Below the pieces are notes generated by a model. The model had not been told where the DNA came from and ran no database searches. It saw nothing but the letters and a program-made list of their open reading frames with translations. This document shows positions 39,852 to 63,137 of a DNA stretch of 64,000 nucleotides, one piece after another (within the stretch, counting starts at the first letter, position 1; each line of letters starts with the position of its first letter). The stretch lies in the NCBI GenBank assembly GCA_903918755.1, contig CAIXFN010000005.1:62001-126000 (forward strand). The letters are read 5' to 3'. The position numbers and the translations under genes are program-made. This stretch comes from an uncultured Pedosphaera sp. (lineage in GTDB: Bacteria; Verrucomicrobiota; Verrucomicrobiia; Limisphaerales; Pedosphaeraceae).

Positions 39852-40511
39852 TCAATCTTCGTCCGGCTCGGAATCCGCCGCTTCGGGATACACGGCGGAA
39901 TCAAGCTGTCCGCGTTGAATCAAATCACTCAAATCGCGCCGGATGGTTTTGCGCGAAACCTGGAAATCCCGAGCCAGTTGCGAGACGCTGGGCTTGGCCG
40001 TGGCCTCGCGCAACCGCTTGATGATCTCATGCTGTCGGGCGAGGCGCTCCGTGAACCGCCGCTCCGGTTCCGTGCAGTCAATCTTCTCCGCCTTTTCCAG
40101 CGCCTGCAACATCTGCACCGTTTCCCCCACCCCGCATTCCGCCAGCGCCCGTTGTACGGTGGCATCCAGTTCATCCAGATCCACCGGTTTTTCCAGCACG
40201 TAATGCGCCGCCAACGGCCCTTGCAACGCCGCCAGTTGCCCCCGGATCTCCAGGGTGCCCGAAATGATGAGAATCGGCACATGGGCGGCGATGGCCTTGA
40301 GCCGCGGGACGAAATCCGTGCCGTATTCCCCCCCGGCGAGCACATGGTCCAGGATGATCAGATCGGGGATGTGCCGGCTCATGGCGGCGAGCGCCGCGGT
40401 CCCGTTCGGGACACAGGTCAACTGGTAGCGCCCCAGCGTCTTGGTGTAATACCGCAATTGCCGGGCTTCATCCTCTACAATCAATATGGATGCCGTCGCC
40501 GTCGATTTCAT
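39852..40511 (-). CDS. Response regulator: REC domain plus DeoR-type HTH
   Basis: The 219-residue protein has a receiver domain (~8-125) with the acidic pair VEDE, the phosphate-accepting Asp55 in LIILDHVL, a Ser/Thr in IISGT (~84-86) and the conserved Lys108 in LEKPVD. After a helical linker with a coiled-coil-like stretch (~130-170), the C-terminus (~172-205) is a winged-helix HTH of DeoR type (SVSQLARDFQVSRKTIRRDL). REC plus DeoR-type HTH is unusual compared with OmpR, NarL or NtrC outputs. It follows the WD40-histidine kinase gene on the same strand after 84 bp and is almost certainly its partner. Hairpin repeats flank it on both sides. Confidence 0.9.
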   Translation of the reverse strand: MKSTATASILIVEDEARQLRYYTKTLGRYQLTCVPNGTAALAAMSRHIPDLIILDHVLAGGEYGTDFVPRLKAIAAHVPILIISGTLEIRGQLAALQGPLAAHYVLEKPVDLDELDATVQRALAECGVGETVQMLQALEKAEKIDCTEPERRFTERLARQHEIIKRLREATAKPSVSQLARDFQVSRKTIRRDLSDLIQRGQLDSAVYPEAADSEPDED

Positions 40512-40595: not shown

Positions 40596-43500
40596 TCATA
40601 CCAGCGGAATGATCAACCGGAAACGGGTGCCCCGGCCCACTTCCGAATGCAGCGCGATCCCGATTCCCTCCTGCTGCGCCATCGCGTACACCACTGACAA
40701 TCCCAGGCCGGTCCCCCGCGTGGCCCCGGTCTGCTTCGTGGTAAAAAACGGCTCGAAGATCCGCTCCAGATTCGCCGGCGCAATGCCCGGCCCGGTGTCC
40801 GCCACCTCCAGTTCGAGGTACCGGGACGACGCGCGCGGACGCAACACCCCCGGGCTCCCCTCCGCCCCGGTTTGCCTCTGCACCACCACCCGGAGCTGGC
40901 CGTGTCCTGCCATGGCCTCGGCCGCGTTGACGATCAGGTTCAGCAAGATCTGTCCCAACCGCGCCCGGGACACCGGCGCGGGCGGCAGCGTACGATCCAG
41001 TTCCAGTTGCAAATCAATGCCGGCCAGGAACGGTTTGCTCAGTAGATTGATTGTGTCCTGGACTACCTCCGCAACGGCACACACGGCCGTCTCGTCCCCC
41101 GCTTCCCGGCTGTAACCCAGCATGGAGCGGACGATGTTCTTGCCCTGCAACACCGTTTCCTCGATATCCGCCAGGTCCGCTTCGATTTCCGGGGTCCGCT
41201 GCACCTGCCGCGCGATCGACTTGTTCGCCATCCGGATGACGGAAAGCAGGTTGTTGAAATCATGCGCGATCCCCGCCGCCAATGTTCCCAGCGCGCGCAT
41301 TTTGTGACTGAGGAACACCTCCGTTTGCGCCGCCACCAGGGCCCGCCCCCGCTCCGCCGCGGTGGCTTCAATCTCTCCGTAGCGATTGATCAACTGGCGG
41401 TGTCGCTGAAAGACCGCGGCCAGCAGCACCAAGGCCAGCGCGCAACTGAGGAAGGCCAGGACGAACAGGGCGGGACTGGGCGTGGTCCGGTCCGCCCGCG
41501 CCAGGAGCGGAGCCGGTCGCCCGCCGTCTCCCCAATCCAATCCCAACCGCGCCAGTTCACCCCGCACTTCGCCCAGATTCCAAAGCTGGATATCGCGGTT
41601 GGCGGTTGCCACCGCCAATTGCGTGCCCGCCTCATTCAAGCTCAGCGACCGGATCTGTTGGGGTACCGGTGCCGGCAAAATGGTCAGGGGCTGGCCGGTC
41701 CCCGGCAAAACCAGTTCCACCTGCGAAGAAGTCCCTGCGATGGCCGCGAAATCGCCCCGGGGGGAAACTCCCACTGGCCCGGTGTTGATCCCCGCCGCGA
41801 TTCGAGCCCGACGCCAGCGGACACTCCAGTTATCGGTGTTGTAACACGTGTTGTCCGTTCCGGTCCCCACCACGAGTCCCTGCCCCTCCGGGGTAAAGGC
41901 TACAAACGCATCGCGATCGATTTGCCGCTCGAATCGCCCGGTTTTCGCGTCCCAGATCTGGGTCCCCTCCCCCAGCCAGGTGCTCGTCGCCAACCACCGC
42001 CCCCCCGGGTCCAGGCACCCATCATTGAAGTACCCGTTTCCCGCCACCCGCCAGCGCGCCGCCGCCCCGTTGCGCTCCTGCCACCGCACCGTCGCCCGCG
42101 TCAGCAGCAACCAACTGCGTCCCCCTTCCTGCCAATGCGCCCGCACCGGCAGGGATCCATCTTCCAGGGTGATCCTGCGCGGTTGTCCCAGTTGGTTGGT
42201 CCCGGTGGGGTTTCCGCCGGCGATTCCGACCGACCAGACCTGCACCCCACCCTGCCCCGCCGTCAACAGTTCGCCGGTCCCGGGCGCAAACTCCACCGAA
42301 TAGGTGGACCCGACGCGGGCCTCCGCCACCTGGGTGCCCCGCGCCAGATCCCATAATTCCAATCCCCGCTCCGTGCCGGCCGCCAGCCAATGGCCATCGC
42401 CACTGAAACTGGTGGACCAAATGTCTCTGGCGCCTGCCAACCCCCCGCGCAAGGTGCGGTACCCGGTGCCCAATTGCACTCGCCAGACCGCCAATCTTGC
42501 GCCCCCCTCCTCCCCCACGATTACTTTTTGGCCGGCCGCGCCGAACCCCAGCGGCACCCCTTCCGCCATCGTAAACAAAGTCGCCCCCGAACCTGCATCC
42601 CAGAACCGCGCGGTCCCATCCCAGGAGGCCGAAACCAGCAGTTCGCCCCCCGGATGAAAACCCACGAAGGCGACCGTCGCGGTATGGCCGGACAATTCCC
42701 GCCGCAGGCCCGAGCGGGGTTCCACCACGTAAACGCTCGCATTCACACAGCCCACCGCCAGCCGGACCCCATCGGGATGCCACCCCAGCGAACTCGGTTC
42801 GGCGGGCAGATCCAATTCGCTTACCAGCAACCCCGCCTGCCAATCCCAGAGCTGGATCTTTCGGCTGCTATAAAAAGTCACCGCCAAGGTCCGCCCCGTG
42901 GGATCAAAGCTGATCTCGCACGGCTCTTCCCGCAGCACCAGGGGCGCCTGATACTCCCATCCATTGGTCACCGAGCAAAATCGGATTCTATTGGCCCCCA
43001 CCCGGAAGGCCAGAACTTGCGCATCGGGCGTGAAGCTGATCGTGTGCCCCCAAAAGGTCTCCGCCCTTTCGGGCGCCTTGAGCGCCCGACGGGAGCGGGC
43101 GGCCAAATCCCAGAGCTGCATTTCCCCGGCCGGGGAACGCACCGCCAGATGGCGACCGTCCGGACTGAAAAAGGCCGTGCCCCGCCCCGGCAATCCCGTC
43201 GCGAGCTGGAACCGGCCCGCGTCGCCGCCCACCGGGCCGACAATCATATCTCCATCGCCGGCCTGGGCGGCAAACCAACGGCATTGCCCATCCACCGCCA
43301 GGAGCACGGAATTCGTGGGCAACTCCTGGCGGACGGGTGGCCCTTCGAGATCGGTCAGTGCCATCACTCCCACCGCCTCATTCCGCAATTCCAGCGAGGA
43401 TTGCCAGGCCGCCGCCGCCTGGATGGCCGCCCAACTCTCCTGCCGCCGCCCCACCCGGCCGCTGCCCCGCCCCGATTGCGCCTGCAGCAGGCGCGAATGC

Positions 43501-43712
43501 CACAATTCCTGTTCCGCCCGCCGCGAGGCCCGGGTGGCCTCCTGGGTTTTTTGTTCCGCCCGCCAGGCCTGCAGCAGGGCCGCCGTGGCCAGCACGATCA
43601 CCAGCACCAGCACCAGCGCCGCCGCCGTTTGCAACCGCTGCAATCCCCGCCGCACGGACGCCCGGCGGCTTTGCAATTCGGCATCCGACAAATTGGACGG
43701 CACTGGTTCCAT
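40596..43712 (-). CDS. Membrane histidine kinase with a WD40-propeller sensor
   Basis: The 1038-residue protein has a membrane helix at ~28-48, a coiled-coil segment (~50-100), a long WD40-type propeller (~130-720), a second membrane helix (~745-768), then a histidine kinase: dimerisation/phospho-acceptor LAAGIAHDFNNLLS with His817, N-box LNLIVNAAEAM, DTGPGI, GTGLGLS. The propeller thus lies between the two helices, outside the cytoplasm. The N-terminal helix, coiled coil and 'LRNEAVGVMALTDLEG' bridge resemble the same part of the Ser/Thr kinase at 15733-18926. The cognate regulator follows after 84 bp. The signal sensed is unknown. Confidence 0.93.
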   Translation of the reverse strand: MEPVPSNLSDAELQSRRASVRRGLQRLQTAAALVLVLVIVLATAALLQAWRAEQKTQEATRASRRAEQELWHSRLLQAQSGRGSGRVGRRQESWAAIQAAAAWQSSLELRNEAVGVMALTDLEGPPVRQELPTNSVLLAVDGQCRWFAAQAGDGDMIVGPVGGDAGRFQLATGLPGRGTAFFSPDGRHLAVRSPAGEMQLWDLAARSRRALKAPERAETFWGHTISFTPDAQVLAFRVGANRIRFCSVTNGWEYQAPLVLREEPCEISFDPTGRTLAVTFYSSRKIQLWDWQAGLLVSELDLPAEPSSLGWHPDGVRLAVGCVNASVYVVEPRSGLRRELSGHTATVAFVGFHPGGELLVSASWDGTARFWDAGSGATLFTMAEGVPLGFGAAGQKVIVGEEGGARLAVWRVQLGTGYRTLRGGLAGARDIWSTSFSGDGHWLAAGTERGLELWDLARGTQVAEARVGSTYSVEFAPGTGELLTAGQGGVQVWSVGIAGGNPTGTNQLGQPRRITLEDGSLPVRAHWQEGGRSWLLLTRATVRWQERNGAAARWRVAGNGYFNDGCLDPGGRWLATSTWLGEGTQIWDAKTGRFERQIDRDAFVAFTPEGQGLVVGTGTDNTCYNTDNWSVRWRRARIAAGINTGPVGVSPRGDFAAIAGTSSQVELVLPGTGQPLTILPAPVPQQIRSLSLNEAGTQLAVATANRDIQLWNLGEVRGELARLGLDWGDGGRPAPLLARADRTTPSPALFVLAFLSCALALVLLAAVFQRHRQLINRYGEIEATAAERGRALVAAQTEVFLSHKMRALGTLAAGIAHDFNNLLSVIRMANKSIARQVQRTPEIEADLADIEETVLQGKNIVRSMLGYSREAGDETAVCAVAEVVQDTINLLSKPFLAGIDLQLELDRTLPPAPVSRARLGQILLNLIVNAAEAMAGHGQLRVVVQRQTGAEGSPGVLRPRASSRYLELEVADTGPGIAPANLERIFEPFFTTKQTGATRGTGLGLSVVYAMAQQEGIGIALHSEVGRGTRFRLIIPLV

Positions 43713-51552: not shown

Positions 51553-52044
51553 ATGATTATGAACTCTTCCTACACTGCCATTCGCAATCACGAAGCACTT
51601 GTTAAGTTCCTGGGCAAATGGCCTTCGTTCGACGACTTTGAAGTCGATTCAATGCTCCTCGAGCGAATCGATGTCGATGAATTATTGGGCCCCGCATTCA
51701 AGTGGTCCACACTCACCATCAGGTTTTTTGGCTTTCGCCATGACGTCGCCGTGGAAAGCCCGGATCGAAACAACTGCCTCATAATCATGCAATTTGGCGG
51801 GCTGGAGAATATGACGTTGAATGGATGGAATAACCAGAACGCTATTAACGGCTTCACCGTGAATTCGAATTGGTCGGAACGCCGCAAACGCCAGCTGTTT
51901 ACGGTTGAACTCATCCAGGGGTTTGGGGTTGGCACCAAATTCGACTGTTGCGAAATGGACTTGATATCCGTCACTCCAACAACGCCGGGGCCGACGATGG
52001 CACCCGGAAGCGACGCCATCAATCGCGCAGCCATTTCAACATGA
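51553..52044 (+). CDS. Imm50-like immunity protein
   Basis: The 163-residue cytoplasmic protein matches the Imm50 immunity family in spacing of key elements: KFLGKWPSFDDFEV near the start (Imm50 has FGxWPSFHDAEV), then a beta-rich core with LTIRFFGF, MQFGGLENMTLNGWNNQNAI and the final CCEMDLISV. Imm50 proteins usually neutralise toxins of polymorphic toxin systems. No toxin gene is seen beside it; the protein upstream has no toxin domain I recognise. It is in an AT-richer islet and overlaps the convergent HEAGH gene by 26 bp, so it may be a transferred orphan. Confidence 0.75.
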   Translation: MIMNSSYTAIRNHEALVKFLGKWPSFDDFEVDSMLLERIDVDELLGPAFKWSTLTIRFFGFRHDVAVESPDRNNCLIIMQFGGLENMTLNGWNNQNAINGFTVNSNWSERRKRQLFTVELIQGFGVGTKFDCCEMDLISVTPTTPGPTMAPGSDAINRAAIST

Positions 52045-52510
52045 TCGGGTAAGCGGGCAAGCCCGCCTGCCGGGCGTTTTTATCATCAAGCGCCAGGCCC
52101 AACCATTGGACCATGGGCAATCCGATATAGTACCCGGAGTTAAAATTCTCCAGCAAAGAGGCCCCGCCGTCGCGATAACCGGCAGCATGGAAGACCACGG
52201 CCGGGTCCAAATTCAAGTGCCGAGCGGCAGCGTAGGACCAGGCGATCGCCGCCATCTCCTCCGCCGGTCCCTGGCCGACGTCACCGTTCAGCCTGGCCCG
52301 TTCGTCCGCCGACGTGACCGCCAAATGCCCGGCCTCATGCAGCAAATCCCCCGGGTAAAGCAATTTGAGATCATCGACCACCAACCCTCCGGCGGCGATT
52401 TGAATTCCCGGCAACACCGTGGGTTCATGAATGATCCCGGCGCGCACCTCCAAACCAATTTCGCCAAGAAAGGCGACTATCTGGCTGGTGATGGGATTCG
52501 AAATCGTCAT
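52019..52510 (-). CDS. HEAGH-motif protein of unknown function
   Basis: I chose the ATG at 52510 (163 residues); an upstream TTG would add 14. After TSQIVAFLGEIGLEV the protein has TVLPGIQIAAGGLVVD, then LLHEAGHLAV with a zinc-protease-like HExxH (His70, Glu71, His74), then EEMAAIAWSYAAA, VVFHAAGY and YYIGLPMVQWLGL. This order is found in a widespread family of uncharacterised bacterial proteins. The HExxH and following Glu (EEMAA) could bind zinc, but protease activity is unproven. It is convergent with the Imm50-like gene, overlapping its stop. Confidence 0.78.
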   Translation of the reverse strand: MTISNPITSQIVAFLGEIGLEVRAGIIHEPTVLPGIQIAAGGLVVDDLKLLYPGDLLHEAGHLAVTSADERARLNGDVGQGPAEEMAAIAWSYAAARHLNLDPAVVFHAAGYRDGGASLLENFNSGYYIGLPMVQWLGLALDDKNARQAGLPAYPIMLKWLRD

Positions 52511-52759
52511 TAAGCTGACGGCCAGTTTATCGGCCGGTTTCGTCCCCGGCAAGAACGCTCCTCCGGTCCCTGATTCGCCGCCATTCGCCCCGGAAATCGC
52601 GCAGGCTGTCCCAATAGTATTTATAATCGCAAGGCATTAGATATTTTTTTCCAACATTGCTCATGGATTAGCGCCGCTCATTACCATGCTTAGGTAACGC
52701 GGTGCTTTTTGAGCGGCCCGACGGATTGCCCAATTCCGGCGGGTCGCACGCAGTGACAT

Positions 52760-54496
52760 ATGAAGCAGCAGGGTTTTTCCCGCCTGTTTGGGGGTATATT
52801 TTTAATCGGATTGATACTGGTATTGGGCGTCATGGTGGGCAAATGGCGGGGCCCAGGCTCCAACTCCGCGACCTCAACCGCCTTGGCGGCGGCACCGACG
52901 GGCACCACCACCAGTCCCCTCTCCGCCGGCCCGGAGGATTTGTTCGAAGATGTCACGGCCCGGGCGGGCATTCATTTCGTTCATCAATTTTGCGATGCTA
53001 AAATCGCCAATATTCTGGAATCGAACGGGGCGGGCGGTTGCTGGTTGGATTTCGATGGCGATGGGCTGATGGATCTGTTCCTCGTGAATTCAGGTCCCCT
53101 CGACGGCGTCACGCATCACGCTCCCGGCACTTTGCGGCAACCAAACCGCCTCTACCGCAATCGCGGTGACGGCACGTTTGCAGATGTCACCGAAAAGGCG
53201 CGACTCGGTGGAGCCGGCTATGGCACTGCGGCGGTGGCCGCGGATTACGATAACGACGGCCATACGGACCTCTTCGTGGTGGGCGTGGGGCGGAGTCATT
53301 TGTATCACAATCGGGGCGATGGCACGTTTGCGGAGGTGACCGATCAGGCCGGGGTCGCGAATGCCGGCGGCACGGGGCTGGGGGCCGTGTTCTTCGATGC
53401 GGACAACGACGGGCATCTCGATCTGTTCGTGGCAAACTATCTGGCGTTCGATCCCAATTACCGGCTTTATTATAATCCCGACGCTTACCCCGGTCCGCTC
53501 GCCTACAAACCGCAGTTCAACAAGCTTTATCACAACCGCGGGGACGGGACTTTTGTGGACATCAGTAAATCCGCGGGTGTGGAAATTCCCGGTCATCGGG
53601 CCATGTCCGTGGCGGTCTTGGATTACAATCACGACGGCGCGCCGGACCTCTATATTTCCAATGACGGCACCCAGAACCTGCTCCTGGTCAATGATGGCCG
53701 GGGCCATTTCAAGGACCAGGGAACGATTGCCGGTGTGGCCTTCAATGCGATGGGTGAGGCGGCCGGTTCGATGGCCGCCGCCATCGGCGATTGCAACAAT
53801 GACGGTTACGAAGACCTGCTGGTGACGAGGTTGGGTTACGGCTCGCTCTACCTGGGCACCGCCAAGGGTTGGTTTGACGATCGGATGATGGCGTCGGGCC
53901 TCGGGGCGCTGACTGCGCAATTTGTGGGCTGGGGAGGGTGCTTTCTGGATTACGACAACCGCGGTCAACTCGACATTTTTATCGCCAACGGGGATCCGCA
54001 TTACCTCGTGGGCTGGGAAAGCTTGCTCCTGGAAAACCGGGGCGATGGCACCTTTGGCGACGCGGCAGCCAAGGGCGGCGTCTATTTCAAAACCAAAATT
54101 CGCGCCCGCGGGAGTGCGGTCGCCGATTACGACAACGACGGTCGGATGGACTTGATCGTCACTACCATTGGCGACCGGCCGTTCCTGCTCCACAACCGGG
54201 ACAAATCCGGCAATCATTGGCTGACCCTCGATCTCGAAGGGACCCTAAGCAATCGGGACGGGTTCGGCGCCTGGGTCAAGGTCACGGCGAGTGGTCGAAC
54301 CCAGGTGGCGGCGGCGCGTTGCGCGTCCGGGTTTCTGATGCAAAGCGATCGGCGACTGCACTTCGGCCTGGGCCGGGCAAGCCAGGTGGAAGTGATCGAA
54401 ATTACCTGGCCGAGCAAGCAGGTCCAACAACTGCGGGATGTGAGTGTGGACCAGATTCTGAAAGTGCGGGAACCGGGTCAGCGGAAGAAGTCATGA
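52760..54496 (+). CDS. CRTAC1/UnbV protein with seven FG-GAP calcium repeats
   Basis: The 578-residue protein has an N-terminal membrane helix (~10-27) that could be a signal anchor, then a Ser/Thr/Ala linker. Seven FG-GAP/VCBS-type blades follow, each with a calcium loop such as DFDGDGLMD, DYDNDGHTD, DADNDGHLD, DYNHDGAPD, DCNNDGYED, DYDNRGQLD and DYDNDGRMD (~85-470). The C-terminal ASPIC/UnbV domain (~490-575) includes DGFGAWVKV and ITWPSKQVQQL. This is the first gene of a seven-gene operon. The UnbV domain is of unknown biochemical role, and the family is often found near electron-transfer proteins. The ATGA at 54493 couples it to the next gene. Confidence 0.93.
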   Translation: MKQQGFSRLFGGIFLIGLILVLGVMVGKWRGPGSNSATSTALAAAPTGTTTSPLSAGPEDLFEDVTARAGIHFVHQFCDAKIANILESNGAGGCWLDFDGDGLMDLFLVNSGPLDGVTHHAPGTLRQPNRLYRNRGDGTFADVTEKARLGGAGYGTAAVAADYDNDGHTDLFVVGVGRSHLYHNRGDGTFAEVTDQAGVANAGGTGLGAVFFDADNDGHLDLFVANYLAFDPNYRLYYNPDAYPGPLAYKPQFNKLYHNRGDGTFVDISKSAGVEIPGHRAMSVAVLDYNHDGAPDLYISNDGTQNLLLVNDGRGHFKDQGTIAGVAFNAMGEAAGSMAAAIGDCNNDGYEDLLVTRLGYGSLYLGTAKGWFDDRMMASGLGALTAQFVGWGGCFLDYDNRGQLDIFIANGDPHYLVGWESLLLENRGDGTFGDAAAKGGVYFKTKIRARGSAVADYDNDGRMDLIVTTIGDRPFLLHNRDKSGNHWLTLDLEGTLSNRDGFGAWVKVTASGRTQVAAARCASGFLMQSDRRLHFGLGRASQVEVIEITWPSKQVQQLRDVSVDQILKVREPGQRKKS

Positions 54497-55959
54497 GGCG
54501 CCAACTCCATGTATTCCTCGGCCTGACCGCGGTCTGGCTCGGCTTGCTGACGGGCGCCGGCTGCCGGGAATCCCGGCCCCAGGGTACGCTGGTCGTCACG
54601 GAAGTGCCGCCGCAAGCAGGCTTCCAGACATCGACCAATGACTGGGATCGCCTTTATCCCACTGGCAGCCGGATCGTCCTGCTGTTCCCGCCGTTCCGCA
54701 CCGGCCCAGTTCGGGTATTGTCCGAAAGCCTGGTGGCGGCCGGTGGGCCAATCGTTTCCCCCGACGGACAAAAAGTCTTTTTTGCAGGGCGGTCCACCAT
54801 CACGAGCGACTGGCAGATCTATGAAGGCTTCCCTGGTGGGGGACGACCGCAGGCGAGGACGGCCATGCCGGGCGGGGCAATCAGTCCAGCGCTACTTCCC
54901 GACGGCGGACTGGTATTTGTCTCCCCTGCAGTCGGTATCCGCGGAACCAATTCCGGGAAACAAGCTTCCGCGCTTTACGTGCAACCCCTGTCGGGCACAC
55001 CACAGCGTTTGACCTTCAGCTCGCGCAACGTGGCCGATCCCGAAATGATGGCGGATGGGCGGATCCTTTTTGTGGCTTCGCCGCAACCGGCCGACGGTGT
55101 CCCCGGCTCCGGAACGGGATTGTTTACGATCAACAATGATGGCACGGAAGTGACCGCCTTTGCCCGGCCCGCGCCGGCTGGGTCCGTCATTGAAAGGCCG
55201 CGGCTCCTGCCCGGCGGCCGGATCGCTATTGTTGTCGCTGCAGCCGGTGCCGCCTCGCCCGAAGGAGCCGCGGAATCGATCCGTCTGGCGCAGCCCTTCC
55301 ACGCCGGAAGCCCTTTGTTTCCGGACGCGCCTGCGCGCATCCGCTCCGTTGCGTCAACGGCCAATGGCGACCTGTTGCTCTGTGCCCGCGTCCCCGCGAA
55401 TCCGCGCTCCACGCTGGCGCTCTACCGCGTCCCACCCGGGCAGACCACGCCGGACGCGCCCTTGCTGGCGGATCCGACTTGGGACATTGCGGAGGCCGTC
55501 GAATTGGCGGCCCATCGCCGACCCATGGGCCGGCTTTCGAGTGTGGATCCCACCAAACACACCGGGCAGATTTTATGTCTCGATGCCAACTATTTGGCGA
55601 ACAGGAATGAGGCCGCCCCGCCCAAGTTGGCGACGGTCCGGGTCCGGATCCTGGCGGAATTTGCACCCGGCACCACCCGGGCACTGGGCGTGGTGGCCGT
55701 GCAAACCGACGGCTCATTCATGGCGGAAGTGCCGGCCGAGGTGCCGCTCGGATTCGAAGCCTTGGACGAGCAGGATCGCGTGGTGGGGCGTCAGGCACCG
55801 ATGCTCTGGCTGCGACCAGGCGAGAACCGCTCCTGCATCGGCTGCCATGAACCGCCCAACCGTTCCCCGCATAACCAACGCCCGCTGGCGGTGAATGTGC
55901 CCGTGCCGCGGTTCGATTTGCCCGTCGGCGGTGTCGCGACCGGAAAGGCGGAACGATGA
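54493..55959 (+). CDS. Haem-containing lipoprotein of the hydrazine-synthase alpha-like family
   Basis: The 488-residue product overlaps the stop of the UnbV gene by 4 bp. A lipoprotein signal ends in the lipobox TGAGC (Cys24). The body is propeller-like (SPDGQKVFFAG, LLPDGGLVFVSP, MMADGRILFVAS, LFTINNDGTEV). The tail has VAVQTDGSFMAEVPAEVP, FEALDEQDR and a single haem motif CIGCH (Cys448-His452), the order found in proteins with the hydrazine synthase alpha middle-domain similarity. Such proteins occur in many bacteria that do not make hydrazine, so the name does not imply that reaction. It should be anchored in a membrane facing the periplasm and could pass electrons to the di- or tri-haem protein encoded next. 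Confidence 0.9.
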   Translation: MRRQLHVFLGLTAVWLGLLTGAGCRESRPQGTLVVTEVPPQAGFQTSTNDWDRLYPTGSRIVLLFPPFRTGPVRVLSESLVAAGGPIVSPDGQKVFFAGRSTITSDWQIYEGFPGGGRPQARTAMPGGAISPALLPDGGLVFVSPAVGIRGTNSGKQASALYVQPLSGTPQRLTFSSRNVADPEMMADGRILFVASPQPADGVPGSGTGLFTINNDGTEVTAFARPAPAGSVIERPRLLPGGRIAIVVAAAGAASPEGAAESIRLAQPFHAGSPLFPDAPARIRSVASTANGDLLLCARVPANPRSTLALYRVPPGQTTPDAPLLADPTWDIAEAVELAAHRRPMGRLSSVDPTKHTGQILCLDANYLANRNEAAPPKLATVRVRILAEFAPGTTRALGVVAVQTDGSFMAEVPAEVPLGFEALDEQDRVVGRQAPMLWLRPGENRSCIGCHEPPNRSPHNQRPLAVNVPVPRFDLPVGGVATGKAER

Positions 55960-57923
55960 GGAAGCTATCCTTGATCCTGCTGCTGGCGTTGGCGAGTTTG
56001 GTGGGCCTGACGCTGTGGGTGCGCCAGACTTACTGGGGCGATCACCGTCGCCGCATGTCCGGACAAACGGATCTCGCCAAAGTGGGCTGCTTGAACTGCC
56101 ACCTGGTTTCCACGGCCAGCCTCCGTTGGTCGCAACCCCGCCCCCACCACGACACTCCGGCGGGCCTCGCGGTTTCCCCCGATGGCGCAATGCTTTATAT
56201 CGCCCTCGACGACCGGGATGAAATCGCCGTGGCCGATACCGCCTCGCGGCAGGTGTTGCGGCGTTGGAAGATCACCGGACGACCCTGGGGACTGGCGTTG
56301 GATAATTTGGGCAAAAGGCTGTTCGTCACCTGCCGTGAGGGCGATCGACTGGCGGTGCTGGATACCGGCGACGGGCATGAGCTGGCGTCGGTGCCCACAG
56401 GCCGCGGACCGGTCGCCGTGGCATTCTGCCGCACGCTGAACGGCGAACGTCTCGTGGTGGCCAATTCTTTGTCCGATGACATCTCGGTCCTCGCGGATTC
56501 GCCCTGGCGGGAACTGGGACGACCGGCGGCCGGACGCGAGCCCTTCGCCGTGGCTGGCTCGCCGGATGGGAGCCGGGCATTCGTGGCGAATCGCATGGTG
56601 GAACTGGCTTCGGTCAAAACCAGCCCGGCTTCTGAACTGACGGAAATCGATACACTAAGCGGTCGCGCGGTGCGCCGCGAGGCGCTAGCTTCGGCGCACC
56701 TCTCCGAGTCCGTCTGCGCGGTCCCCTCCCGGTCCTGGATGCTGACCCCCGTTGTGAAGATTCGGAACCAGGTGCCAATCACCCAGGCGGCGAATGGCTG
56801 GGTGATGTCGGGCGGCTTGGCCATCACGGATGTCAATACCGGCGAGATGCTGCAAATGCCGCTGGATGAGGCCAATGACTATTTTGCGGATCCCGCCGGT
56901 CTGGTGGTGGATCCCGCTGGTGGCCGGGCGTTCATCGCCTCGGGGGGCAGTGACGTGATTACGGTCGTGGACCTCGAGCGGATGGCGGCTTGGCTGGCGA
57001 AGGCGAGCCCGGCGGAGCGCCGGGAAGCCATTTATGACCTGGCGCTCGCGCCGGAATATGTGGTCGCGCGCCTTCCCACCGGGCGCAATCCCCGGCAACT
57101 GGCCCTCAGCCCGGAAGGGAGCACGCTGTTCGTGGCGGAACGACTGGAGGATGACATCCTGCTCTTGGATGCCAACCAACTCACCGTGCGGGGACGGATC
57201 CGCCTGGGCGACGGCGGATCCGACGATCCCATCCGCCGCGGAGAAAGGGTCTTTACTTCGTCGGCCTATACTTTCCAGCACCAGTTTTCCTGTCGTTCTT
57301 GTCATCCCGACGGCCACATGGACGGACTGAGCTACGACTTCGACGGCGACGGCATCGGCGACAACCTGCTCGATAATCGCAGCCTCCTCGGAGTGGCGGG
57401 CACGGAACCGTTCAAATGGAATGGTAAGAATCCCAGCCTTGATGTACAATGCGGTCCGCGCTTTGCCAAGGTGCTGATGCGCACCGAACCTTTTCCGCCC
57501 GGCCCCTTGCAGGACCTGACGACCTTTATCAAATCCCTGCCGCCCGCGCGGTCGGCACGGAGAGGGGATGGCAAACTGACCACGGCGCAGGCCCGGGGCA
57601 AAGCCATTTTCTTTGCCACGAGGACCGCTTCCGGAAAGGAGATCCCGCATGAGCGGCGTTGTTCGACGTGTCATCGGCCACCACTCTATTCCGTGCGGTT
57701 ACCCTTCGACGTGGGCACGCAGGGAACATCGGATACCACCAAGGCGTTTGACACTCCGCACTTATTGGGCGTCGGCGGCACCGCGCCATATCTCCACGAT
57801 GGCCGGGCGCAATCGCTCGAAGAGATCTGGACTCTTTACAATCCCGATGACCGGCATGGAGTGACCAGCGACATGAACAAGATCCAACTCAACGATTTGG
57901 TGGAGTTTCTAAAAACCCTGTGA
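55956..57923 (+). CDS. YVTN-propeller cytochrome with three CxxCH motifs
   Basis: The 655-residue protein has an N-terminal membrane helix (~5-22) and a CLNCH motif (Cys45-His49). A YVTN-type propeller follows (~55-430, with AVSPDGAMLYIAL, KRLFVTCREGDRLAVLD, LSPEGSTLFVAERL). The C-terminal part is like cytochrome c peroxidase/MauG, with CRSCH (~446-450, in SCRSCHPDGHMDG) and CSTCH (~569-573). The final FDTPHLLGVGGTAPYLHDGR is typical of those di-haem enzymes. It is coupled by a 4-bp ATGA overlap to the lipoprotein upstream. A periplasmic electron-transfer or peroxidase-like role is likely; the electron acceptor is unknown. Confidence 0.93.
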   Translation: MRKLSLILLLALASLVGLTLWVRQTYWGDHRRRMSGQTDLAKVGCLNCHLVSTASLRWSQPRPHHDTPAGLAVSPDGAMLYIALDDRDEIAVADTASRQVLRRWKITGRPWGLALDNLGKRLFVTCREGDRLAVLDTGDGHELASVPTGRGPVAVAFCRTLNGERLVVANSLSDDISVLADSPWRELGRPAAGREPFAVAGSPDGSRAFVANRMVELASVKTSPASELTEIDTLSGRAVRREALASAHLSESVCAVPSRSWMLTPVVKIRNQVPITQAANGWVMSGGLAITDVNTGEMLQMPLDEANDYFADPAGLVVDPAGGRAFIASGGSDVITVVDLERMAAWLAKASPAERREAIYDLALAPEYVVARLPTGRNPRQLALSPEGSTLFVAERLEDDILLLDANQLTVRGRIRLGDGGSDDPIRRGERVFTSSAYTFQHQFSCRSCHPDGHMDGLSYDFDGDGIGDNLLDNRSLLGVAGTEPFKWNGKNPSLDVQCGPRFAKVLMRTEPFPPGPLQDLTTFIKSLPPARSARRGDGKLTTAQARGKAIFFATRTASGKEIPHERRCSTCHRPPLYSVRLPFDVGTQGTSDTTKAFDTPHLLGVGGTAPYLHDGRAQSLEEIWTLYNPDDRHGVTSDMNKIQLNDLVEFLKTL

Positions 57924-57957
57924 AGTCCCACCGCTAATCCTCAACTTAAACCCTCGC

Positions 57958-59115
57958 TTGAAACTCTGGAGAATCATCACCGGTGTCGTGCTAGGACTGC
58001 AACTCGCTGGCGGTCCCCGCGTCCGTTCTGCAGAAACGGCGGGACCTGACCTGCCGTTCCCCCTGATCGAGCGCTTCGAGACCTATGGAGCCGCGGAGGG
58101 TTTGCCCGGCCACAAGATACAATGCGTGACGCGCGCGAGCGATGGCCGACTATGGGTGGGAACTTACGAAGGCGCTGCCGTGCGCGAGAATGGGAGGTTT
58201 CACCTCATCAGTACGAACGCGGGACTGAGCCATCGCATGGTGATGTGCCTGGTGGAGGATCCCCGGCGCGGCGACCTGTGGCTCGGCACCATGCGCGGGC
58301 TCAACCGTTATAGTGCCGGCCGGATCACGACCTATACGCAGACCGACAGCGGCTTGCCCAACAACGTGATCTACGGCCTCGCGATCATGAATGACTCGCT
58401 CTGGGTGGCCACGGCGGCCGGGTTGGGGATGTTGGAACTCAAAACCGGGTCCTGGAAGATCTACGACCACAACAACACGGTGATGCATGAGCCGTGGGTT
58501 TACGCGGTGAAATCCGCCGGGGATCGGCTGTTCGTGGGGGTCTGGGGTGGCGGTATTTTGGAATTCGAACCGGCCAATGGCATTTTCAAGGAGCACCGCG
58601 ACCCGGACCGGGATATGCACTTCGACCTCACCCCGGATGATGGTCCCGTGTCGGACGTCACCTCCTGGATCGCGTGGGATGCGGGGATTCTCTGGCAGTC
58701 CACCTACTTCGGCCTTTCCCGTTACGATGGCTCCCGGTGGCGCACCTGGCAGGAGAAGAAATCGCCGCTCCCTTCCAATTTTGTGAATTTTGTTTGGGCG
58801 CGCGGCCCGGTGGCCTGGGTCGGCACCGACCGGGGATTGGCCGTCACGGATGGCAGCATTTGGGCGAATTATCGCACCACTGATCAGGGGACCGGGATGT
58901 TGGAAATCGCGGCTCCCGGTCGCCCCGTGGAAAACCGCCGGATGACCACCGCCCTGCCCAACAATTTTATCCACGGCATCTGGGTGGATGACCATGAGGC
59001 TTGGCTCGCCACCGCCGACGGTTTAGCGCATGCCTTTTTGGCCGCGCCCCGCACCGCGGGCAAAGCTGGCGATGCCAAAACGAATCCCGCAACCCCGTCC
59101 TTTGGGCGGAATTGA
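57958..59115 (+). CDS. Stand-alone two-component-regulator propeller protein
   Basis: The 385-residue product begins at a TTG and has a signal peptide (to ~residue 25). It is made of Reg_prop repeats: YGAAEGLPGHKIQCV, DGRLWVGTYEGAAV, GDLWLGTMRGLNRY, DSGLPNNVIYGLAI, LWVATAAGLGML, VWGGGILEFE, ILWQSTYFGLSRY, VAWVGTDRGLAV, AWLATADGLAHAF. These repeats usually form the sensor of hybrid histidine kinases, but here no kinase or Y_Y_Y domain is attached, so it works as a separate secreted protein. It is 34 bp after the cytochrome gene and 4 bp before the next gene. Confidence 0.9.
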   Translation: MKLWRIITGVVLGLQLAGGPRVRSAETAGPDLPFPLIERFETYGAAEGLPGHKIQCVTRASDGRLWVGTYEGAAVRENGRFHLISTNAGLSHRMVMCLVEDPRRGDLWLGTMRGLNRYSAGRITTYTQTDSGLPNNVIYGLAIMNDSLWVATAAGLGMLELKTGSWKIYDHNNTVMHEPWVYAVKSAGDRLFVGVWGGGILEFEPANGIFKEHRDPDRDMHFDLTPDDGPVSDVTSWIAWDAGILWQSTYFGLSRYDGSRWRTWQEKKSPLPSNFVNFVWARGPVAWVGTDRGLAVTDGSIWANYRTTDQGTGMLEIAAPGRPVENRRMTTALPNNFIHGIWVDDHEAWLATADGLAHAFLAAPRTAGKAGDAKTNPATPSFGRN

Positions 59116-59119
59116 AGCC

Positions 59120-60511
59120 ATGACCCGTCTCGTGAAGCCGCCCGAGCGCATGAAGAAACCGTTCCTGATCTTTGCCGCGTTGTGGCTTGCCGCCGCGGTG
59201 GGCTGGTGCGATGGATACCCCGAAAAGCTGGACTCGAATACCAACCACCTCCTGGAACCAATCCTGCCTGCGGGCGCGGGCGCCAATTTACTCGTGGAAG
59301 GGGACTACCCCTATTATGGCAATGTGCCGGTGGAAATGCGGCCGTACCGGAATATCGTTCCGCATTTCCGCTATTGGCTCACCCGGCTCCCGTTTCGCGG
59401 GCCGGGTCGTGATTATCCCGATCCGCCGGGTTTGTCCTCGCTCAAGATCGGTTTGCTCAGTCCCCCGAACTATGGGACGGAAGCGAAACGCGGGGAGCTT
59501 TCCCGGCAGGGAGTGCAATTGGCGATTGAGGAAGCCAACGCGGCGCGCCGTCCCGGCGAGTTGCCCTTCGAGTTGGTGGAACGGGCCGATTCACCCCAAT
59601 GGGGCAGCGCGGCCAACATCGCCGTCGATTTCGCGGATGCAAATGTCCTGGCGTTTATCGGCACGATTGATGGCGACGCCACTCACGTCGCCCTCCGGGT
59701 GGCTTTGAAGACGGAGACGTTTATCGTGAACTGCTCGGATCCCGATCCCTCCCTGACCGAAACGCAAATCCCCTGGTTGCTGCGCAATTTTCCGGATAAC
59801 CGCCAGCACGGGTATCTCCTCGCCCGGTTGATCGTCGAGGAACGCGGCCTGACCAACATCGTCGTCCTTCGCGCCAACAACCGCCCGGGACGAATGGGGG
59901 TCCGGCCGTTTGTGGATGCCGTCCGCCGCCTCGGCCATCCGGTGCTCCAGGAAATTAACTTCAAGGAAGGCGAGCGGACGTTTGAAACGTCGATCACGGT
60001 GCTGAAGCAGGCCCAACCCGACGCCATCGTCCTCTGGGGCAATCCCGCCGAAACCGGCCTGGTAGCCGCCCAACTGCGGTCGGCTGGCGTCAAGGCCGCG
60101 CTCTTCGGTTTTGACCGCCTCGTCGATCCGGAGTTCGTTCGTCTAGCCGGCCTTGCGGCGGAAGGTGTAACGGCCGCCTTTTTCTTTGATCCGGAGCGCA
60201 CGGACCCGGTCTGGCTGGGGTTTGTCGCCCGGTATGAAAAGCGCTTCGGTCAGCGTCCGGAGCACTATGCCGCCTATGGTTACGACGGGACCAAAATGCT
60301 CCTGGCGGCCATCCGTAAGGTCGGACCGAACCGCTATCGCATCCACGACGCCATGACGTCGATCGATGAATACCAGGGTGTGTCCGGCTACATGCGGTTT
60401 GACGGCCGCTGGGACAACATCGCCCCGATCGTTTACGCCCAATACTTGGGCGGGAAATGGCACTACCTTCCCGCACCCCCGGCCAAATCCACCCAAGCCG
60501 CCCGGAACTGA
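59120..60511 (+). CDS. Leu/Ile/Val-type periplasmic binding protein (first)
   Basis: The 463-residue product starts at ATG 59120, or at ATG 59150, which directly begins the signal MKKPFLIFAALWLAAAVG. After an unusual ~80-residue segment (with YPYYGNVPVEMRPYRN), the binding domain has LKIGLLSPPNYGTEAKRGEL, QLAIEEANAARRPGELPFE, AFIGTIDGDATHVA, HGYLLARLIVEE and YGYDGTKMLLAAIRKV, typical of Peripla_BP_6 proteins. No permease or ATPase gene is present in the operon. Residues that bind the amino acid's charged groups are not clearly conserved, so another ligand or a sensing role is possible. Confidence 0.91.
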   Translation: MTRLVKPPERMKKPFLIFAALWLAAAVGWCDGYPEKLDSNTNHLLEPILPAGAGANLLVEGDYPYYGNVPVEMRPYRNIVPHFRYWLTRLPFRGPGRDYPDPPGLSSLKIGLLSPPNYGTEAKRGELSRQGVQLAIEEANAARRPGELPFELVERADSPQWGSAANIAVDFADANVLAFIGTIDGDATHVALRVALKTETFIVNCSDPDPSLTETQIPWLLRNFPDNRQHGYLLARLIVEERGLTNIVVLRANNRPGRMGVRPFVDAVRRLGHPVLQEINFKEGERTFETSITVLKQAQPDAIVLWGNPAETGLVAAQLRSAGVKAALFGFDRLVDPEFVRLAGLAAEGVTAAFFFDPERTDPVWLGFVARYEKRFGQRPEHYAAYGYDGTKMLLAAIRKVGPNRYRIHDAMTSIDEYQGVSGYMRFDGRWDNIAPIVYAQYLGGKWHYLPAPPAKSTQAARN

Positions 60512-60514
60512 AAC

Positions 60515-61669
60515 GTGCCAATTAAAGTCCATTTCCTCCCGGTCCTCCTCGTCGCCCTCGCTTGGATGCCGACGCCCCTGGCGGCAAGTCCGCCTACCTT
60601 CGGCACAAACATGGTGATGGGCCTGTTGCTACCCCCGGAAAGCGACGCCGCGGTAAGTCTGAAAAACGGCGCCGGATTGGGCGTGGAACTGGCAAATCAG
60701 GCTTGGGGAGTGAACGCTCGACTCGTCATTCGCGGTCGCACGGGACAATGGGGTGCGGATGGCATGGAAGCCGCGCGGATGATATTGGACGATGGCGCGC
60801 AAGGTTTGATCGCGCCTCCCGATGGAGCCGCGTGCCACCTGGTGCTCCAGGTGGCCGGCCGCACGGCGGTGCCCGTGGTTTCTCTTTGCGGCGACTCTTC
60901 CGTGACCCAGACCGGTGTTCCGTGGCTCGCGCGGGTAGTGCCCCGCACCATTGAAGAGGCCGAAGCCTTGTTCACTGGACTGCGGTGCGATCACTGGGTG
61001 GCCGTGACGCCGAATGGGCGGGCGGGTCGGGAGGTCCGTCGTGACCTCCAGGCAGCGGCGAGGAACCGTGCTGGCACCAACGGGCAATTCTTCGAAGTAA
61101 ACCGCCCCGGCACGAATCCGGCACGATTGGCTCGTCAGATCATCGCCGGGCACCCCGATTCGGTTCTGTTGTGGCTGGATCCCGCCGTCGCCGGGACCAT
61201 GGCGCAGGCCCTGCGCAAAGCAGGATTTGCTGGCGAGTTGGCTGGACCAGGGCGACTGCATTCGCCCGACTTTGTGGCGGCCGCTGGCCGGGGCGCGGAG
61301 GGGTTGCTGGCGCCGGGACTGAGGCAGTCCTTCGTCCGCATCGGTCCGCCCCAGCGCACAGAATTCGCCGCTGCGTATCGTGAACGGTTCGGTACGTCCC
61401 CGGATGCCACTGCAGTCATGGCCGGTGATGCGGCCTGGCTCTTGGTTCAGGTCTTGCAATCGGCCGGCTCCCATCCGGCATACAGGGTTTTTCCCCTGGT
61501 TGGATCGTTCTCCGGCGCTTCAGGAGTTCTGACCTTTGATCGCTCGGGTAATCTCATCTCCAACTTGGGCTTGCTACGACTGCGCGGCGGGCAGTGGATT
61601 CCAGAAGCTTCACAGATACCGTCGGGAAGTTCGAATAAAGTCGCTGGCAGGCAATTCCCCCAACCATGA
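60515..61669 (+). CDS. Leu/Ile/Val-type periplasmic binding protein (second)
   Basis: The 384-residue product has a GTG start 3 nt after the previous stop and a signal peptide ending LAASP (residue ~24). The Peripla_BP_6-type body has MGLLLPPESDAAVSLKNGA, GAQGLIAPPDGAACHLVLQV, VSLCGDSSVTQTGVPWLARV and VMAGDAAWLLVQVLQ. It is related in fold to the preceding binding protein but only distantly in sequence, so it is not a recent duplicate. It may recognise a different ligand. The ATGA at 61666 couples it to the membrane protein downstream. Confidence 0.88.
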   Translation: MPIKVHFLPVLLVALAWMPTPLAASPPTFGTNMVMGLLLPPESDAAVSLKNGAGLGVELANQAWGVNARLVIRGRTGQWGADGMEAARMILDDGAQGLIAPPDGAACHLVLQVAGRTAVPVVSLCGDSSVTQTGVPWLARVVPRTIEEAEALFTGLRCDHWVAVTPNGRAGREVRRDLQAAARNRAGTNGQFFEVNRPGTNPARLARQIIAGHPDSVLLWLDPAVAGTMAQALRKAGFAGELAGPGRLHSPDFVAAAGRGAEGLLAPGLRQSFVRIGPPQRTEFAAAYRERFGTSPDATAVMAGDAAWLLVQVLQSAGSHPAYRVFPLVGSFSGASGVLTFDRSGNLISNLGLLRLRGGQWIPEASQIPSGSSNKVAGRQFPQP

Positions 61670-62130
61670 ACCCGATCACCAGTGCCCACCTGCACCTCGT
61701 TTTGTGTCATGCCCCGATCCTGACGCTCCTTCTTGGCGCCCTTTGGTTGCTGGTCGGATGGTGGCGCGGACTGCGCGAGATTCAGCAAGCGGCGTTACTC
61801 ATGTTTGTCCTGACCGGAGTCTTGGCTACGCCTCTCTACTTGACCGGCAAACCAACTGCGGGCGCGGTCAAAGCCCTGCCGGAATTCTCTGACCGCTATC
61901 TGGAGCACCATGAAGCGGCCGCCGGGGTAGCGCTGGCGGGGTGCGTCGCCCTCAGCCTGGCGGCTTTGGTAGGCATCCTGTATTTCCGCGACCGGCCTTT
62001 CGCTCCCAACTTCATGTTGCTCATGCTGGTGGGCGCTCTCGCTGTAAGCGGCATGTTGGTCTGGGCCGGCAACGCCGGCGGCCAAATCCGACATTCAGAA
62101 ATCCGCCCCGATCCCCCGGCGACGGAGTAA
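61666..62130 (+). CDS. Four-helix membrane protein with conserved-looking histidines (DUF2231-like)
   Basis: The 154-residue protein has four hydrophobic helices (~15-33, ~42-60, ~84-106, ~112-132). His8, His10 and His15 (AHLHLVLCHAP) lie before the first helix, and His81-His82 (LEHHEAA) before the third. This resembles DUF2231-type membrane proteins, in which such His may bind haem b. It is the last gene of the operon and overlaps the previous stop by 4 bp. It could be the membrane electron entry or anchor for the periplasmic cytochromes, but this is inferred from its position and His content. Confidence 0.85.
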   Translation: MNPITSAHLHLVLCHAPILTLLLGALWLLVGWWRGLREIQQAALLMFVLTGVLATPLYLTGKPTAGAVKALPEFSDRYLEHHEAAAGVALAGCVALSLAALVGILYFRDRPFAPNFMLLMLVGALAVSGMLVWAGNAGGQIRHSEIRPDPPATE

Positions 62131-62309: not shown

Positions 62310-63137
62310 TCAATGAATCCATTTCGATAAATGGATGATGGAGCGCTCCGCTTGTTCCACCGTGCCGCATTCCACCGAGAAGACGATGTCACGGCTGGAG
62401 CGCCGGCAAATTTCGACCACGCGCTGCCAATCGATGACCCCTTCGCCGCAGGCGCAACCCACGGGGGTGCCGGTGACTTTGCCGCGGTCGCTCGCGGATT
62501 GGCGCACGGAAATATCCTTGGCATGCAGGTGGACGAGGCGGTCCAGGACACGCTCCAGCCACTCGTACGGATCGTGACCACACAAGTAGCTGTTGCCGGT
62601 GTCGAAATTGATCCCGATGGCCGGGCTCTTGACGAGGGCGTAGATACGGTCGAGTCCCGCGGGATTGCGGCTGTACTGTTGATGCGGTTCCAGGCCAAGC
62701 AGGATGCCGCGCGGTTCGGCGACTCTCGCCGCCTCCATAAGCGTGTAGCGCATGAGCACATGATCCTCCTCCTCCGTGGTCCAGACCGGCTTGGGGCCTT
62801 CGTCGGTGTTCACCACCGGGGCGCCGCATTCCGCAGCGAAGCGAATGGCTTGTTTGAGATATTCGACGCCGATCTCCGGTTTGCAAAGGGGCGTGTGGGC
62901 GGAGAAGCCGGATAATTTGACTCCGCTCTGGTCACAGGCGCGTTTAATCCGGAGTGGGTCGTCCAACATGGAGACACTGTGGAAGTAGCCGGCTTCACTA
63001 AGGAGTTCGCGGCCCCAGTGGACCATGGGCTCCACGTATTCGTAACCGAGCTCCGCCGCCTTGGCGACGCCCCATTCGAAGTTCTTGTCCTCGTGACGAA
63101 CGAATTCCATGTTGACGCCGAGTTTGATGTTTCCCAT
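62310..63137 (-). CDS. Sugar-phosphate isomerase/epimerase-type protein
   Basis: The 275-residue protein has the xylose-isomerase-like TIM barrel: KLGVNMEFV at the start, YEYVEPMVHWG, the metal ligands in LLGLEPHQQ, INFDTGNSYLCG, HLHAKDI and FSVECG. This set (Glu, Asp, His, Glu) holds a divalent metal in the family, whose members isomerise or epimerise sugars and related compounds. The exact substrate is unknown. The start ATG is preceded by a strong Shine-Dalgarno AGAGGAGAT, rare in this window. The PmoA-like gene is 29 bp upstream on the same strand, so they are probably an operon for sugar use. Confidence 0.93.
   Translation of the reverse strand: MGNIKLGVNMEFVRHEDKNFEWGVAKAAELGYEYVEPMVHWGRELLSEAGYFHSVSMLDDPLRIKRACDQSGVKLSGFSAHTPLCKPEIGVEYLKQAIRFAAECGAPVVNTDEGPKPVWTTEEEDHVLMRYTLMEAARVAEPRGILLGLEPHQQYSRNPAGLDRIYALVKSPAIGINFDTGNSYLCGHDPYEWLERVLDRLVHLHAKDISVRQSASDRGKVTGTPVGCACGEGVIDWQRVVEICRRSSRDIVFSVECGTVEQAERSIIHLSKWIH

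Follow-up and report, generated by a model that had tools for sequence, protein, structure and literature searches.

An uncultured Pedosphaera sp. (GenBank assembly GCA_903918755.1) carries a compact cluster of seven genes for haem, propeller, and substrate-binding proteins, and the question it raises is what these proteins do together. The genes (g1 to g7) lie at 52760 to 62130 of a 64,000-nt stretch, contig CAIXFN010000005.1 positions 62,001 to 126,000, which we call the window and whose numbering is used throughout. We find that g2 encodes a short homologue of the alpha subunit of hydrazine synthase (HZS) and g3 a fused homologue of its beta and gamma subunits, that the three cysteines and proximal histidine of the gammaI-type haem are kept, and that the genes form a conserved unit. 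An initial sequence-only reading had overlooked the HZS homology in its domain calls for both proteins; the redox assembly it proposed is supported by their HZS-like haem domains. Judging from sequence, we consider it fairly probable that the cluster encodes an HZS-like redox enzyme that acts on small molecules but is not itself a hydrazine synthase. HZS was formerly thought to be without homologues, as the text of PMC12758564 recounts; with a six-gene HZS-like unit conserved outside anammox, the origin of HZS and the ancestral reaction become testable.

The middle domain of g2 matches Pfam PF18582 HZS_alpha (7.9e-17), its sequence matches the solved alpha chain 5c2v_A (9.7e-8), and the top fold for its AlphaFold2 model (pLDDT 89.7) is again 5c2v_A (E 3.7e-22, TMq 0.75), the next, unrelated fold being TolB (1.3e-9). 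Likewise, g3 matches the NCBIfam model NF052342 hydrazine_BC (2.2e-50) as well as the solved chains 5c2v_B (9.3e-33) and 5c2v_C (5.5e-18), and its AlphaFold2 model (pLDDT 85.8) has 5c2v_B as top fold (Z 42.6 over 341 residues, root mean square deviation 2.0 Å; next Z 36.3), a comparison that covers mainly residues 63 to 408, the beta half. Both proteins score below the HZS family cut-offs, at 37.1 bits of a required 800 for g2 in the NCBIfam alpha model and 171.6 bits of 1250 for g3 in hydrazine_BC. With anammox HZS (5C2V) the window shares alpha, beta, and gamma homologues encoded together, an alpha with an N-terminal propeller and a middle haem domain, a seven-bladed beta, and a di-haem gamma with a third haem cysteine. 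It differs in having the beta and gamma parts in one protein (as is the case in Scalindua), the alpha gene first, an extra N-terminal haem, and extra partner genes, and in the site residues that follow.

According to the text of PMC12607021 and PMC12758564, haem gammaI of HZS is held by three cysteines and a histidine, with a hydroxide or water ligand. In g3, C446, C449, H450, and C499 align with gammaCys102, gammaCys105, gammaHis106, and gammaCys165 (numbers derived by counting along the aligned 5c2v chain) and are kept in 60, 60, 60, and 57 of 60 homologues, respectively, the covalent bond to the third cysteine being predicted; the three exceptions (L094, L097, and L101) have Asp. Of the parts measured, the gammaI haem segment shows the highest conservation, with a mean top-residue fraction of 0.76 against 0.56 for the propeller. 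Special conservation of the blade-6 loop was also considered, but at 0.64 against 0.56 overall it is not clearly higher, and we make no claim for it. Two positions depart from HZS, as W488 aligns with gammaHis144 and is Trp in all 60 homologues, while F503 aligns with gammaAsp168 and is Phe in 32 and Leu in 28. In g2 the haem motif belongs to a CxGCH kept in 58 of 58 aligned alpha homologues. The ligand of haem alphaI in HZS is Tyr591 (PMC12607021, PMC12758564, in the text available), and no Tyr follows the CIGCH of g2; a C-terminal bis-His haem alphaII domain is likewise lacking in g2, whose sole CxxCH stands 36 residues before its end. At the alphaCys303 zinc site, which the text of PMC12758564 describes as unconserved in HZS homologues and not present in all anammox bacteria, the alignment of the g2 propeller to HZS is weak.

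All seven open reading frames (ORFs), read from the window, are on the plus strand, with 4-bp overlaps at 54493 (g1/g2), 55956 (g2/g3), and 61666 (g6/g7) and gaps of 34 nt (g3/g4), 4 nt (g4/g5), and 3 nt (g5/g6). This packing had been described correctly in the sequence-only reading, as had the CxxCH counts of one in g2 (residue 448) and three in g3 (45, 446, and 569). From the ORF arrangement, g1 to g7 are very probably one transcription unit; a promoter scan of the locus gave no match and had little power, as 2.1 matches were expected by chance. Hydrophobic N-terminal segments were recognized by eye in g1 through g6, and g2 is by the same judgement a probable lipoprotein.

The gene order recurs well beyond the window. 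A genome scan with an alignment of ten g3 proteins returned 92 relatives, and the best 80 of these, together with seven loci from further relatives and the window, gave 88 loci that were mapped with profiles (built from the counted loci themselves, so that bit scores are inflated). Copies were dropped before counting (L061, L062, L063, and L080, equal to L083, L105, L107, and L092), and the counts use aligned coordinates in loci with enough flank, window included: at least 4.5 kb upstream for the UnbV gene and at least 5 kb downstream for the substrate-binding protein (SBP) genes. Three layouts were found, with labels that follow gene arrangement and the description in PMC12758564 rather than a tree with its clades. 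Type III (41 loci, including the window) reads UnbV, alpha, beta-gamma, Reg_prop, SBP, SBP, with three haem motifs in the beta-gamma protein of 36 loci, the other five being split or beginning at a contig end. Type I (35 loci) reads alpha, UnbV, beta-gamma, Reg_prop, SBP, SBP, with ten haem motifs in 32 and six in 3, while the six-haem type (12 loci, Planctomycetota) comprises alpha, beta-gamma, and Reg_prop only. An alpha gene lies upstream of beta-gamma in 59/59 loci (27/27 type III, 25/25 type I, and 7/7 six-haem) and Reg_prop downstream in 73/76 (31/34, 31/31, and 11/11); Pfam checks of one type III and two six-haem loci confirmed the Reg_prop assignment. UnbV is present in 26/27 type III and 25/25 type I loci and in 0/7 of the six-haem type. 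Two SBP genes accompany 29/31 type III and 22/25 type I loci (51/56 together) and 0/9 six-haem loci, and all six genes are found in 18/22, 19/22 (37/44 together), and 0/7, respectively.

Chance is excluded as the cause of the clustering because the order recurs in dozens of loci, whereas eight chosen loci with distant g3 paralogues (see below) have no UnbV, Reg_prop, or SBP neighbour. The claim that the genes form a unit, which a gene order conserved in no relative would have refuted, is borne out by this comparison. The usual core has six genes: of the seven-gene set first proposed, g7 drops out, being present in 5 of the 26 other type III loci whose downstream sequence is long enough. The smallest core is alpha, beta-gamma, and Reg_prop, which makes Reg_prop the steadiest extra partner, present also in loci that lack UnbV and the binding proteins; this is a new observation. 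In alignment, the third haem cysteine is kept in the type III and six-haem layouts too, likewise a new point, as the text of PMC12758564 calls this cysteine unique and reports it for clade I.

Loci with the full set are found under the record names Verrucomicrobiota, Acidobacteriota, and Planctomycetota, and partial sets in Elusimicrobiota (L114 and L115) and one "Deltaproteobacteria" metagenome-assembled genome (MAG; L144), two of these on cut contigs. Record titles of the uncultured bacteria that bear the unit include bog, fen, palsa, and groundwater. A quick-method tree of 89 beta-gamma rows, rooted with paralogues, was built without the four copies, L106, L108, L109, L113, L131, L133, L145, rows shorter than 600 residues, and the paralogue L041. 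In it the window and three relatives, which include a "Verrucomicrobia subdivision 3" record and a Limisphaerales MAG, group inside type III (SH-aLRT 99). Type I and the six-haem type form one clade (100), and type III needs two changes on this rooting, which does not support it as a single clade. Among Verrucomicrobiota of type III, L084 (a "Candidatus Solibacter" MAG, Acidobacteriota) pairs with L085 (Limisphaerales) with support of 94, which suggests transfer between phyla, misbinning of the MAG being the alternative.

Several of these features have precedents. In the clade III HZS homologues described in the text of PMC12758564 (Hagglund et al. 2025), alpha is preceded by an FG-GAP gene, beta and gamma are fused and bear one additional haem motif, and two ABC substrate-binding genes follow downstream; "hzs-like" genes had been named in Phycisphaerae MAGs already in 2023 (PMC10732223). 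The statement in the sequence-only reading that no system of this composition had been described therefore falls, at least on the text of these two papers. By description rather than by a tree with its sequences, the window cluster fits clade III in the testable points: FG-GAP, alpha, beta-gamma, and two downstream SBP genes stand in the same order, alpha is short and without haem alphaII, beta-gamma has one extra haem motif, and Trp occupies the gammaHis144 position with no Tyr591. It differs in that Reg_prop is present here and unnamed in the main text of PMC12758564, in that the third cysteine is found in the window, and in g7 and a Tll0287-like gene of other type III loci (see below), neither mentioned in that text. 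Several of the Phycisphaerae MAGs (OFTM) of PMC10732223 correspond to six-haem loci here, with Reg_prop downstream (Pfam-checked in two six-haem loci from other MAGs), but where flank sufficed they show neither the UnbV nor the SBP genes of the window. The Reg_prop partner, the third haem cysteine in three layouts, and the recurrence of the unit in uncultured bacteria sharpen the published picture. A full-text literature search found no experimental study of the cluster.

We hypothesize that the cluster encodes a membrane-tethered periplasmic haem complex on the HZS plan, in which alpha (g2) and the fused beta-gamma protein (g3) would be joined by the propeller proteins UnbV (g1) and Reg_prop (g4), the binding proteins g5 and g6, and the membrane protein g7. 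Electrons would pass from a membrane or periplasmic carrier to the extra N-terminal haem and on through the gammaII-type to the gammaI-type haem, which would convert a small molecule, and the product could then follow the beta propeller to reach the alphaI-type haem, where a second step would take place. The binding proteins may capture or present a small ligand, and the family signature they keep would fit a periplasmic one. The substrate pair is probably not nitric oxide (NO) and ammonium, because the positions of alphaTyr591, gammaHis144, and gammaAsp168 differ and an HAO/HDH match is absent from the genome.

Several points weigh against this proposal. The electron path and the two-step channelling would be carried over from HZS by analogy, and we infer, rather than observe, that the assembly is an enzyme, because several HZS site residues differ. 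The gamma half of g3 falls outside the fold lists, so that its kinship to HZS gamma is read from sequence. Among alphas, 53 of 58 are without Tyr in the 8 residues past the haem motif, but loss of the Tyr ligand does not seem universal because five type III alphas have Tyr at +3 from the haem His. The unit is also patchy: of 384 genomes sampled from the class, 8 have a g3 match above 400 bits, and beta-gamma matches are of E 6.0e-15 or weaker in seven other sampled genomes of the window's family, one of them of the same genus. The cluster has no permease, which is odd for simple uptake; as for an uptake system in its own right, no permease was recognized among the neighbour ORF clusters common to at least 4 loci, judged by eye from sequence fragments (most were antisense ORFs of core genes and were ignored). 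A link to nitrite reduction was also considered, but NirK exceeds its cut-off in 2 of 20 operon-bearing and 9 of 46 other genomes of a hand-picked sample, which shows no association.

One alternative, which we regard as unlikely, makes the gamma domain a modifier of the MauG/cytochrome peroxidase kind that would use peroxide, or a high-valent haem and Trp, to oxidize a residue of a partner such as UnbV or Reg_prop. It is consistent with a CCP_MauG Pfam match to g3 (1.1e-8, part of the domain only), with the two c-haem motifs, with the co-encoded propeller proteins as possible substrates, and with the inter-haem W488, as the Trp at the gammaHis144 position is likened in the text of PMC12758564 to that of MauG and di-haem cytochrome c peroxidase. 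The gamma sequence is nevertheless closer to HZS gamma, with 78.0 bits for hydrazine_gamma against 26.2 for TTQ_mauG and with 5c2v_C as the sole di-haem match in the PDB at E≤1e-3. Unlike the MauG proteins, g3 has a fused propeller, a partner alpha, and the third haem cysteine, an HZS trait; the conserved haem subunit alpha would be unneeded for such a role.

We also doubt that the assembly is a periplasmic redox or ligand sensor, in which the SBPs and Reg_prop would detect a ligand and the haems would respond to NO or to the redox state, with no net catalysis. In favour of this, hybrid two-component sensors are known to contain Reg_prop domains (PDB 4a2l), and a Tll0287-like gene, of a fold known from sensors, occurs in 15 type III loci. 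Against this, no kinase or regulator adjoins the unit as a shared neighbour; the lone kinase-like cluster, seen by eye in 4 loci including the window, lies about 7 to 10 kb off at scattered positions, and the high conservation of the gammaI haem segment is as for a catalytic site.

A bolder and somewhat less probable conjecture is that in all layouts the three-cysteine gammaI haem carries out NO or hydroxylamine chemistry within an unrecognized periplasmic enzyme family that couples two nitrogen (or nitrogen and carbon) substrates. Such a family would span Verrucomicrobiota, Acidobacteriota, Planctomycetota, and Elusimicrobiota, with anammox HZS as one specialized branch. Reg_prop would be an overlooked core subunit, and the paired SBPs would present the second of the two substrates; an amide or a nitrile is conceivable here in view of the carbon-nitrogen hydrolase genes near six type I loci, a weak hint.

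True hydrazine (or hydroxylamine) synthesis outside anammox, in which the gammaI-type haem would reduce NO for condensation with an amine at the alpha haem, might be argued from the shared subunits and the third haem cysteine, from the possible anammox proposed for Phycisphaerae with hzs-like genes (PMC10732223, in the text available), and from an excess of HAO-family genes in operon-bearing genomes of the same sample (7/20 against 4/46; Fisher p 0.014, uncorrected for phylogeny and genome size), which is suggestive only. The window genome (7.19 Mb, 96.92% complete) has no match to the HAO/HDH family (PF13447) and no NirK over the cut-off, the only match reaching 25 bits. Hydrazine synthesis by the cluster, and hence an anammox locus, is unlikely because Tyr591, haem alphaII, gammaHis144, and gammaAsp168 are unmatched and an HAO/HDH-family match is missing; with both scores far under the HZS cut-offs, and the text of PMC12758564 likewise arguing against it for these homologues, we consider this reading very improbable. 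HZS-family matches in genome annotation are accordingly no evidence for anammox. An L-NosZ relationship was rejected as well, as the NF052460 match of 30.3 bits (cut-off 700) reflects propeller resemblance only. An HZS-like redox enzyme with another reaction remains the reading we prefer, and its components in the window are listed in Table 1.

Table 1. Genes g1 to g7 and the haem-site features of g2 and g3, in window positions.
Feature	Position	Strand	Remarks
g1, FG-GAP/ASPIC-UnbV protein (CRTAC1-type), 578 aa	52760..54496	+	N-terminal hydrophobic segment
g2, HZS-alpha-like protein, 488 aa	54493..55959	+	Propeller and haem alphaI-type middle domain; without alphaII domain
CIGCH haem c motif, g2 residues 448-452	55834..55848	+	
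g3, fused HZS beta-gamma-like protein, 655 aa	55956..57923	+	N-terminal hydrophobic segment and extra haem motif
Extra N-terminal haem motif CLNCH, g3 45-49	56088..56102	+	C45 and H49 in 60/60 homologues
gammaI-type haem motif CRSCH, g3 446-450	57291..57305	+	H450 aligns with gammaHis106; kept 60/60
C499 of g3	57450..57452	+	Counterpart in the alignment of gammaCys165, the third cysteine bound covalently to haem in HZS
gammaII-type haem motif CSTCH, g3 569-573	57660..57674	+	Kept 60/60
g4, stand-alone Reg_prop propeller, 385 aa	57958..59115	+	TTG start
g5, substrate-binding protein 1 (Peripla_BP_6)	59120..60511 (or ATG 59150)	+	
g6, substrate-binding protein 2 (Peripla_BP_6)	60515..61669	+	GTG start; g5 paralogue
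g7, small His-bearing membrane protein	61666..62130	+	DUF2231-like (weak); accessory

The earlier domain calls for the other partners are confirmed by Pfam. The g1 protein matches FG-GAP_3 (1.5e-55) and UnbV_ASPIC (2.2e-19); here the family stood and the number of repeats did not, as Pfam marks six FG-GAP_3 stretches where seven repeats had been claimed. Reg_prop in g4 is identified by PF07494 (1.3e-11) and PDB 4a2l (2.3e-34), and the two SBPs by Peripla_BP_6 (5.9e-40 for g5, which also matches PDB 3hut at 4.9e-25, and 4.6e-25 for g6). D184-G185 and H189 of g5 are conserved. By eye, the amino-acid-binding Ser/Thr positions known for LIV-binding protein look lost in g5 and g6, and we draw no ligand from this. 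The PF09990 match is weak in g7 (E 0.5) and better in the relative from L090 (4.4e-5). Downstream of the second SBP gene, 15 type III loci carry a gene for a Tll0287-like (PF11845) haem protein, with a CxxCH in 14 of the 15 and one on the opposite strand; it is on the same strand in 14 of the 26 other type III loci and is absent from the window. Examples are L082 12748-13500 and L106 5887-6675, and the assignment was Pfam-checked in four.

The downstream border of the cluster is marked by a sugar-isomerase-like TIM barrel gene on the minus strand (62310-63137). Upstream the limit is less certain, since the closest ORF (52019-52552, minus strand) gave no Pfam match; among those scanned, the nearest upstream plus-strand ORF with a Pfam match ends at 52044 and encodes an immunity-like protein of the Imm50 family (51553-52044), with no toxin domain in the few neighbours scanned near it. 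Farther upstream, on the minus strand, the window encodes a WD40-repeat protein with HisKA and HATPase domains (40596-43712), adjoined by a response regulator with an HTH domain (39852-40511).

The window genome holds four further HZS-alpha domains, three of them clustered with a second beta-gamma gene. In this second locus (L068 2799-14648, minus strand) three alpha-type proteins are encoded after a beta-gamma gene with two haem motifs, and one of the three contains an F5/8 type C domain; UnbV, Reg_prop, and SBP matches are absent from this locus. The fifth HZS_alpha-domain protein of the genome (L069 7030-9747, plus strand; 905 aa, one CxxCH) has no beta-gamma match nearby. More widely, eight chosen loci with distant g3 paralogues (26 to 32% identity) have no UnbV, Reg_prop, or SBP match above 45 bits in 14 to 20 kb, and five of the eight have an alpha-like gene. 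Small, nearly complete genomes of 2.7 to 3.5 Mb from one genus (g110, family f64) also encode g3-like genes (26 to 29% identity), and in the one locus of this genus that was read (L074 7141-13569, minus strand) the g3-like gene has beside it one for a protein of 1213 aa that matches g2 with 72 bits.

Other neighbours recur around the unit. Within about 5 to 9 kb of six type I loci lies a gene for a carbon-nitrogen hydrolase (nitrilase-type), in most cases on the opposite strand (L078 1494-2789, L079 16321-17001, L119 15502-16560, L120 15932-16951, L127 10412-11500, and L135 15328-16389; Pfam-checked in three). A DAHP-synthase-like gene was seen by eye near five loci, and an ATP-binding cassette (ABC) ATPase appears at scattered neighbour positions (checked in L105). 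Near one six-haem locus lies a gene for a 4Fe-4S membrane protein with TPR repeats (L158 4077-6194, minus strand), and a cluster of ORFs similar to it, with the identity checked in L158, is found close to six loci that have the type I or the six-haem layout.

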